From Gemmatimonadales bacterium (GTDB lineage Bacteria; Gemmatimonadota; Gemmatimonadetes; Longimicrobiales; Gaopeijiaceae), in contig REBP01000122.1 in the NCBI GenBank assembly GCA_007692665.1, positions 1 to 44,365 of the forward strand: a DNA stretch of 44,365 nt. The letters run 5' to 3'. The translations under genes were made by a program, and so were the position numbers. Positions 30,162 through 32,092 of this stretch are shown one piece after another. Under the pieces are notes generated by a model. The model was not told where the DNA came from, made no database searches, and saw only the letters and a program-made list of their open reading frames with translations. The first letter of the stretch is position 1. The number at the start of each line of letters is the position of its first letter.

Positions 30162-31619
30162 ATGCTCCTCGTAGGCGTCACCGGCCCCGCCGGGTCGGGT
30201 AAATCCACCACGCTGGCAGAACTGGCCATCTGGGCCGCCTCCGAGGGGCTGGGGGTGGACGGTTTCGCCCAGCCTGCCGTGGGCACGCGCACGTCCCCGC
30301 GTCGCGGGGCACAGGGGTACGACCTGGAGCGGCTGGGGCAGAACACCGACGCGGAGGCCGCCCCCCCGCGCCGCCTCCCCTTCGCCCGTCGTGACCGCAC
30401 CAAGGGGAGCGCGATCCCCTACGCCTTCTCGGCCGACGCGCTCGCCACGGCCCATGCCTGGGTTCGGACCGCCCTCGCCGAGGGGCCGCCCGACCTCCTC
30501 CTCATGGACGAATTCGGCCGGGTCGAAGCCGAGGGCGGGGGCCACATGGCCCTCTGGCCCGAGGTGGAGGCCGCGGGCCCGGACATCGTGATCCTGGCGG
30601 TGCGCGAGGGCGTGGTCCCCCAGGTGGAAGCTCGCCTGGGGCGCACCTTCGACCGTGTCGTCCACCTGGACCCCGACGCCCGCACCGACCCCGCGCCCGG
30701 GCAGACCACCCCCCTCGAGGAACTCCGCGTTCTCGTCCTGGAGCAGCGGGACTGGTCCCGCGTCGGGGTGTACGGAGCCGGTTCCGGGGGATTCGAGTGG
30801 TCCGTGGGCTCCGCGCTGCATGCCGTCCGCGTGCCCATGCGGGGGCTCGTCCTTTCCAGCACCCAGGCGGCGGTGATGGTCTTCGCCGGAGCCGGCCTGG
30901 GGCGTCGGGGCCGCGTGGTCTGGGTCCCCTTCATCGCCGCGGGCATCAAGGCGCTGTCGCCGGCAGGAAGCCGCATCCGCGCCATGCTGGCCATCACGAT
31001 CCAGGGCATCCTGTTCGGAGGAGCAACCCGGCTCCTCGGCTGGAACCCGGTGGGGATCTTCGCGGGCGGCGCCCTGGTGGGTTCGTGGGCGGTCTCGCAG
31101 GGGCTCCTGCTCCAGTATCTCCTCATCGGGAGCGACCTCCTGGTGGCCTACCAGGCCGTGGTAACCTGGGTGGTGGGCCGATGGAACGTGGGTGTCCCCG
31201 GTATCGCGCTCCTGCTCGGCGCCTGGGTGGTAAGCTGGGGGCTCGTGGCGGGGACCACCGCCCTCGTGGCGTGGCGAAAGGGCGCCCTCCCCCTCCGCCT
31301 CAGCGAGGCGCTGGACAGGGGCGCCACGGGGATTCGCTGGGAAGAGCCCGCTCCGACCTGGTCGAGCGCCATGGGGCGCGGGGCCCGGGACATTCTCCGC
31401 CCCGTCTTCTGGCTTCCGGTCCTCCTGGTGCTCGGGATCCTGCTCTCTGCCGGGGCCTCCTGGGAGCGCGCCTTCTGGATCGGCGCCCGGGCCCTCACCG
31501 TGGGCATGGTCGTCTTCTCGCTGGTCCGGGCCTTCGACGCCCGCGGGTTTGTCCAGTGGCTCCGGCACCGGGGGCACTGGGGACCCGCCGTGGCCTTCGA
31601 GCGGGCCATGCGCCGCTGA
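30162..31619 (+). CDS. THEP1-type NTPase fused to a polytopic membrane domain (ECF-transporter-like)
   Basis: This 485-residue two-part protein starts at ATG 30162 after a GGAGGGGG element. Residues 1-200 form a P-loop domain: Walker A GPAGSGKST (8-16), then LLLMDEFGRVEAEG (112-125) and DIVILAVREGVVPQVEARLG, the order seen in THEP1-type nucleoside-triphosphatases (NTPase_1). Residues about 228-460 are hydrophobic with roughly six to seven helices. These contain GRRGRVVWVPFIAAGIKALSP and MLAITIQGILFGGATRLLGWNPVGIFAGGALVG, which recall ECF S-components. The C-terminal part has two helices and the tail FVQWLRHRGHWGPAVAFERAM. Substrate is unknown. An NTP-driven transporter is an inference. The rhodanese gene overlaps its stop by one base (TGATG). 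Confidence 0.75.
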   Translation: MLLVGVTGPAGSGKSTTLAELAIWAASEGLGVDGFAQPAVGTRTSPRRGAQGYDLERLGQNTDAEAAPPRRLPFARRDRTKGSAIPYAFSADALATAHAWVRTALAEGPPDLLLMDEFGRVEAEGGGHMALWPEVEAAGPDIVILAVREGVVPQVEARLGRTFDRVVHLDPDARTDPAPGQTTPLEELRVLVLEQRDWSRVGVYGAGSGGFEWSVGSALHAVRVPMRGLVLSSTQAAVMVFAGAGLGRRGRVVWVPFIAAGIKALSPAGSRIRAMLAITIQGILFGGATRLLGWNPVGIFAGGALVGSWAVSQGLLLQYLLIGSDLLVAYQAVVTWVVGRWNVGVPGIALLLGAWVVSWGLVAGTTALVAWRKGALPLRLSEALDRGATGIRWEEPAPTWSSAMGRGARDILRPVFWLPVLLVLGILLSAGASWERAFWIGARALTVGMVVFSLVRAFDARGFVQWLRHRGHWGPAVAFERAMRR

Positions 31620-32092
31620 TGGACCTCCTCGAGGCCCTGGGCGATCCCGGCACCCGGGTGCTGGACTTCCGGCCGATCCCCGCCTTCCTCGGGGGCCACG
31701 TTCCGGGGTCGATCCATCTCCCCGAGCCCCCCGACACCGCCTCCGGGCTTCCCGACGGGCTGGCCCGGGGACTCGCCGCCGAACTCGCCGGCATGACCCG
31801 CTGGATCCTGCTCCACCCCCTGCTGCCGCCGGGCCCCGGCCTGCTCGCCACCTGGTGCGGCGCCGGACACCGCCTCCACACCATCGGGGAGATCACCCCC
31901 TTCGAGGTGGAGGACCTCCGCGCCGTGGGCGAGGTCGAGCTCGTGGATGCGGGGGGGCCGACCCCGCTCCAGGTGAAGGCCCGCCCCCGCGTCCCCGTCG
32001 CCGTCGTGGGTGCCACCCTCCCCATCCGGGCGCTCGCCGCCTCCCTTCTGCTGCGGAGGGGGACCCCCGACGTCCTCGTCCTTGTAGACTGA
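31619..32092 (+). CDS. Rhodanese-like protein, translationally coupled to the NTPase-membrane fusion
   Basis: The ATG at 31619 shares its A with the preceding stop (TGATG), and the product has 157 residues. The N-terminal half has VLDFRPIPAFLGGHVPGSIHLPEP (about 14-37), the rhodanese entry (D/R..F..GH.PGS). An active-site loop WCGAGHR follows (C80-G-A-G-H-R85, matching CxxGxR). Sulfurtransferases of this kind move sulfane sulfur via the Cys. The C-terminal 55 residues (VPVAVVGATLPIRALAASLLLRRGTPDVLVLVD) do not match the rhodanese fold and might be a separate strand-helix-strand element. The coupling suggests joint function with the membrane protein, for example transport or sensing of a sulfur or metal compound; this is an inference. 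Confidence 0.6.
   Translation: MDLLEALGDPGTRVLDFRPIPAFLGGHVPGSIHLPEPPDTASGLPDGLARGLAAELAGMTRWILLHPLLPPGPGLLATWCGAGHRLHTIGEITPFEVEDLRAVGEVELVDAGGPTPLQVKARPRVPVAVVGATLPIRALAASLLLRRGTPDVLVLVD

Follow-up and report, generated by a model that had tools for sequence, protein, structure and literature searches.

Introduction

The closest described counterparts of the system reported here are the ECF transporters, which are composed of EcfS and EcfT components together with a pair of ABC ATPases (EcfA/A'). Solitary S components such as BtuM, whose substrate is cobalamin, may also work without an ECF module. The second family concerned, the THEP1-type P-loop NTPases, is little understood, and the known structures of THEP1 and NTPCR (PF03266; 1ye8 and 2i3b) are those of single-domain proteins. 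In a search of the open-access literature, we found no paper linking THEP1 with ECF transporters and no description of a bacterial transporter for the molybdenum cofactor (Moco) or molybdopterin (MPT). Uptake of molybdopterin has been raised, as a speculation and for another system, in PMC12282271.

In the present study, we analysed a window, that is, the whole stretch of 44,365 nucleotides of contig REBP01000122.1 from a Gemmatimonadales bacterium (assembly GCA_007692665.1; genome G000). A gene on its forward strand (30162..31619) joins a THEP1/DUF2478-like NTPase, an S-like membrane domain and a partial T-like region in one chain of 485 amino acids. We suggest that this gene belongs to a system salvaging the organic part of a molybdenum or tungsten cofactor (Moco/MPT), a proposal that we consider evenly balanced between right and wrong.

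Results and Discussion

The fusion gene is one open frame of 485 codons without internal stops, and all features given below lie on the forward strand. The NTPase domain occupies residues 1-194 (30162..30743), where DUF2478 (PF10649) matched at 25.8 bits (8.7e-6), above its cut-off of 22.3, and the THEP1 family NTPase_1 (PF03266) at 23.1 bits (7.4e-5), just under its cut-off of 23.9. The Walker A motif GPAGSGKST (residues 8-16; 30183..30209) has the GxxGxGK[ST] form, and the Walker B-like LLLMDEFGR (residues 112-120; 30495..30521) carries DExG as in THEP1 relatives. Fold, Walker A and DExG are shared with the THEP1/NTPCR and DUF2478 proteins, and the difference is that the domain is here fused to membrane domains. 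The membrane part, which gave zero Pfam matches, begins at about residue 195-200, as indicated by hydrophobic segments and by helices in the AlphaFold2 model. Its S-component-like domain (residues 195-375; 30744..31286) was delimited by alignment A2, AlphaFold2 and the Foldseek match to YkoE (5edl). In alignment A2, E212, R223, P225, K263, S266 and Y330 are among the residues invariant across five family members, and two of them, the lysine and serine, belong to the loop KALSP (residues 263-267; 30948..30962). The partial T-like region (residues 400-485; 31359..31616) stops where the T region of the relatives goes on (alignments A5 and A7). The motifs GPAGSGKST, LLLMDEFGR and KALSP and a TGATG overlap with a rhodanese gene had been accurately described in the original prediction.

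The AlphaFold2 models, built from shallow alignments, have moderate mean pLDDT values of 56 and 66. In Foldseek searches against the PDB, the NTPase of a relative (L005) matched THEP1 (1ye8) and human NTPCR (2i3b) with probability 1.00. The only high-probability membrane structure for the same relative was the ECF S-component YkoE (5edl; 0.98, TMt 0.52, 186 columns, E 0.33), which was again top by probability for the window chain (0.72). With E-values this weak, the models support an S-component identity at the level of fold. Profile comparison (hhalign) of the S and T parts against one canonical ECF S and two CbiQ proteins gave no link, and the T-like parts were unmatched by Pfam CbiQ; the resemblance to ECF therefore lies in the fold and does not amount to a close relationship in sequence. 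The fusion of a THEP1-type NTPase with an ECF-S-like domain in one chain, as first proposed, is supported by Pfam, by BLAST to relatives of swapped domain order and by Foldseek, but the ECF resemblance of the membrane part holds for predicted structure and not for profiles. A partner ECF module elsewhere in the genome had also been envisaged; our search of G000 found no CbiQ/EcfT.

The fused NTPase is THEP1/DUF2478-like and not of the ABC type. Since the ABC ATPase pair is missing, this is by definition not an ECF transporter, and it further differs from ECF systems in its single chain and varying domain order, whereas the S-like fold is shared at the level of predicted structure, and the T-like domain of the relatives may be a further common trait. 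The system probably works like an ECF transporter in substrate capture, and by analogy the THEP1 NTPase may power transport. Because the NTPase domain is single and the T region of the window variant is shortened, gating or trapping is conceivable instead. The S-like domain could even act alone, as may happen in BtuM, which has no fused NTPase, with the THEP1 domain trapping or modifying the imported cofactor (for instance by nucleotidylation) or sensing NTP and switching the carrier. This would be another mechanism for the same substrate, and we regard it as possible though fairly unlikely: much of the T-like region is missing from the window chain, which has one NTPase and not a pair, and the P-loop domains of the relatives are weakly similar to MobB models, but in the relatives a T-like domain still separates S from NTPase.

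The canonical CbiQ proteins of three other carriers (G019, G049 and G051) were rejected as partners. Those of G051 and G019 probably serve nickel, judging from the genes nearby, which we take to be a NikR-like regulator and a hypD-like gene. In one contig of G051 (L051, G051:C116, 1-5058), a NikR-like regulator, a TonB receptor, an S component, a methyltransferase and CbiQ are encoded one after another, in what looks like an ECF system of the nickel type equipped with a dedicated TonB receptor.

Searches among relatives, 298 genomes of the phylum and 154 of the order brought the number of carriers to six (G000, G001, G019, G049, G051 and G352). The earlier suggestion was to be refuted if the fusion occurred in no other genome. 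A congener (G001; L006/L011; SKNW01000007, a Gemmatimonadetes MAG) carries it at 83% identity with intact motifs, and the same fusion is present in G352 (L007/L030/L031), a genome from another family of the order; hence it is no chance joining. The three further carriers extend the range of arrangements. G019 and G049 have the reverse order of S-like, T-like and THEP1 parts (PF03266 3.6e-26 and 1.7e-22). In BLAST, residues 198-330 of the window protein (P0001) matched 1-133 of L003 (E 8e-17) and residues 3-127 matched 388-502 (E 5e-5), so that the two parts are swapped in position. In G051, the S-like and T-like proteins have a gene each, a TonB receptor gene comes next, and there is no NTPase gene beside S and T. 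The conserved fusion, the swapped order and the split genes establish a membrane family that is real, rare and variously arranged. The carriers span five genera of one phylum and are all draft MAGs, G001 being 75% complete and G352 having 6% contamination. No further carriers were found on plasmids, phages or viral contigs, and a scan of genome contigs yielded close relatives only. A match in G083 was discarded as CrcB-like (24 bits). A TonB receptor near the G352 fusion was rejected as a partner, being ZnuD-like and convergent.

The gene neighbourhoods gave the first indication of a substrate. In G051, a Moco riboswitch (RF01055; L008 1757-1898; 51.7 bits, 2.6e-9) extends to where the S gene begins, directly upstream of the S, T and TonB genes. 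It lacks stem P3, and the Moco riboswitch form without P3 was tied to the tungsten cofactor (Tuco) by Regulski et al. 2008 (PMC2408646). This is the only one of the six carrier loci with such a riboswitch; at the window, no match appeared even with E values as high as 10 allowed. In G049, a class I methyltransferase gene precedes and overlaps the S-T-NTPase frame, and its product is 37% identical over its full length to one encoded in an E. coli ABC-methyltransferase-modD-TonB operon, presumably Fit. The E. coli operon shares a homologous methyltransferase (37%) and a TonB receptor (about 25%), but its import relies on a binding protein with an ABC transporter, and an S-T-NTPase is absent. It lies on pMY504-2 (L025, 1401-7827), comprises genes for binding protein, permease, ATPase, methyltransferase, ModD (QRPTase fold) and TonB receptor, and is annotated as siderophore transport; its relatives point to molybdenum. 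Relatives of the G051 TonB receptor include ones beside moaA/narGHJI or modD. As a separate observation, on a P. aeruginosa plasmid (CP109682.1; L024, 7857-10381) a TonB receptor gene related to that of G051 overlaps one for a 182-aa PF00174 protein (sulfite-oxidase fold), and the pair adjoins moaA and narGHJI; this is possibly another receptor for a Mo cofactor or Mo chelate, with a binding protein.

These neighbourhoods could also be read as import of molybdate, tungstate or a Mo/W chelate and not of a pterin. Metal transport genes are likewise under Moco riboswitch control, the G051 riboswitch is of the Tuco-linked type without P3, and the related methyltransferase adjoins modD in E. coli. 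Metal import would, however, leave unexplained why moaA, moaC, moaD and moaE are missing together from five of the six carriers, including three that still have genes for Mo insertion, and we hold it to be unlikely.

This loss emerged when the Moco synthesis genes were examined, because the G051 riboswitch suggested the cofactor as cargo. In a first comparison, MoaA was missing in five of six carriers and found in six of six controls. A joined Moco-gene query over 20 genomes then showed G000, G001, G019, G049 and G051 to be without MoaA, MoaC, MoaD and MoaE, while MoaA, MoaC and MoaE were present in all 14 controls lacking the system. The sixth carrier, G352, has the fusion plus a full Moco pathway. 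Across the phylum, MoaA was detected in 358 of 395 genomes. The association of moaA loss with the system gave Fisher p values of 3.5e-5 by genome and about 0.001 by genus, which are indicative, as related genomes are non-independent and the status of the system is known for part of the 395. In the closed chromosome of a control (G005), moaC lies ~1 Mb from moaA-moaE; an assembly gap would thus have to hit two places in each carrier. MoaC or MoaE is retained by 13 of the 16 other MoaA-less genomes, and for most of these an assembly gap is the likely cause. G188 has lost moa and moe genes and has a sulfite-oxidase-like match without the S-T-NTPase system, which indicates that such losses have other routes too. 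Side by side with it, G236 and G336 (all three Gemmatimonadota) are without the system and had no detected moaA, moaC or moaE, G336 having two moeA copies; these three may use another salvage route.

Demand for the cofactor persists in most of the affected carriers, as Mo enzymes were found in four of the five without moaACDE. G019 and G049 have MsrP-like proteins (54-58%), G049 several XDH-type enzymes and G051 a NapA (46%), and all three keep MoeA. MoeA without MoaA was rejected as a marker by itself, being seen in 12 of the 16 other MoaA-less genomes. In the window genome, neither MoeA nor Mog nor MobA was detected, and there is a sulfite-oxidase-family enzyme (PF00174 1.1e-54, PF03404, motif TECAGNGR). 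This family uses Mo-MPT without a nucleotide, so import of the finished cofactor would suffice in G000. Two matches in this genome were set aside: a MoaA-like one (about 32%) is another radical-SAM protein without PF06463, and a NapA-like one covers an N-terminal stretch only, turns up in the majority of the genomes searched and, by our reading, resembles ActB of alternative complex III.

The substrate may instead be another vitamin, as in a YkoE-like transporter for thiamine or HMP, with the Moco links due to lineage or chance. YkoE is the nearest fold, the carriers belong to only five genera and G352 has kept its Moco pathway. We find this doubtful, as the riboswitch, the methyltransferase, the TonB neighbourhood and the gene loss all indicate a Mo/W cofactor. 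For the same reasons, Moco or MPT is our preferred cargo, and the sulfur- or metal-containing compound first suggested fits the evidence for this cargo.

The rhodanese-like gene (31619..32092) overlaps the stop codon of the fusion gene (TGATG). Its product matched PF00581 at 26.3 bits, above the cut-off, over residues 2-38 only, and has the loop CGAGHR (residues 80-85; 31856..31873). In the congener G001, a 54% identical protein is encoded behind the fusion, in which the loop reads CRAGHA, so that the last arginine of CxxGxR is replaced by alanine and the cysteine is retained. No rhodanese gene follows the fusion in G352; the gene is conserved within the genus only. As a partner, which had been the earlier suggestion, the rhodanese thus gains weak support: it co-occurs in the two congeneric genomes and is absent beside the third fusion. 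A role in sulfur transfer is our guess. The gene pair of this genus could also be a derived or decaying form with some other, rhodanese-linked role, given the shortened T region, the missing moeA, mog and mobA and the restriction of the rhodanese to the genus. The 83% identity and intact motifs of the congeners, and the same fusion in another family (G352), speak against this, and we think it improbable.

Returning to cofactor salvage, we propose that the window gene is one of a small group of related systems for uptake across the inner membrane. Their building blocks are a substrate-binding domain resembling ECF S components, a T-like membrane domain and a THEP1-type NTPase, which occur on one chain in either of two orders or as separate genes. 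A TonB receptor, such as that beside S and T in G051, would carry the cofactor across the outer membrane, to be bound by the S-like domain. The THEP1 domain would take the place of the two ABC ATPases in ECF systems and, by binding or hydrolysing NTP, would switch the carrier or hold on to the cargo. Genomes that retain MoeA together with Mog or MobA would import MPT; those devoid of synthesis genes, like G000, may import completed Moco (Mo-MPT). The domain composition, the relatives, the riboswitch, the gene losses and the Mo enzymes are observations; we infer the substrate, the direction, the role of the NTPase and the working of the window variant, with its shortened T region, like the others.

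Conclusion

In its most specific form, our proposal is that intact Moco or molybdopterin is imported by a single chain, in which a THEP1-family NTPase does the work that ABC ATPases do elsewhere. We put this forward tentatively and think it rather unlikely to hold in every part; it would be the first bacterial transporter for Mo salvage at the level of the cofactor and the first cellular role for the THEP1 fold. If true, some bacteria would be Moco auxotrophs that obtain a labile cofactor from others, and the question of what THEP1-type NTPases do in the cell would gain a testable answer.
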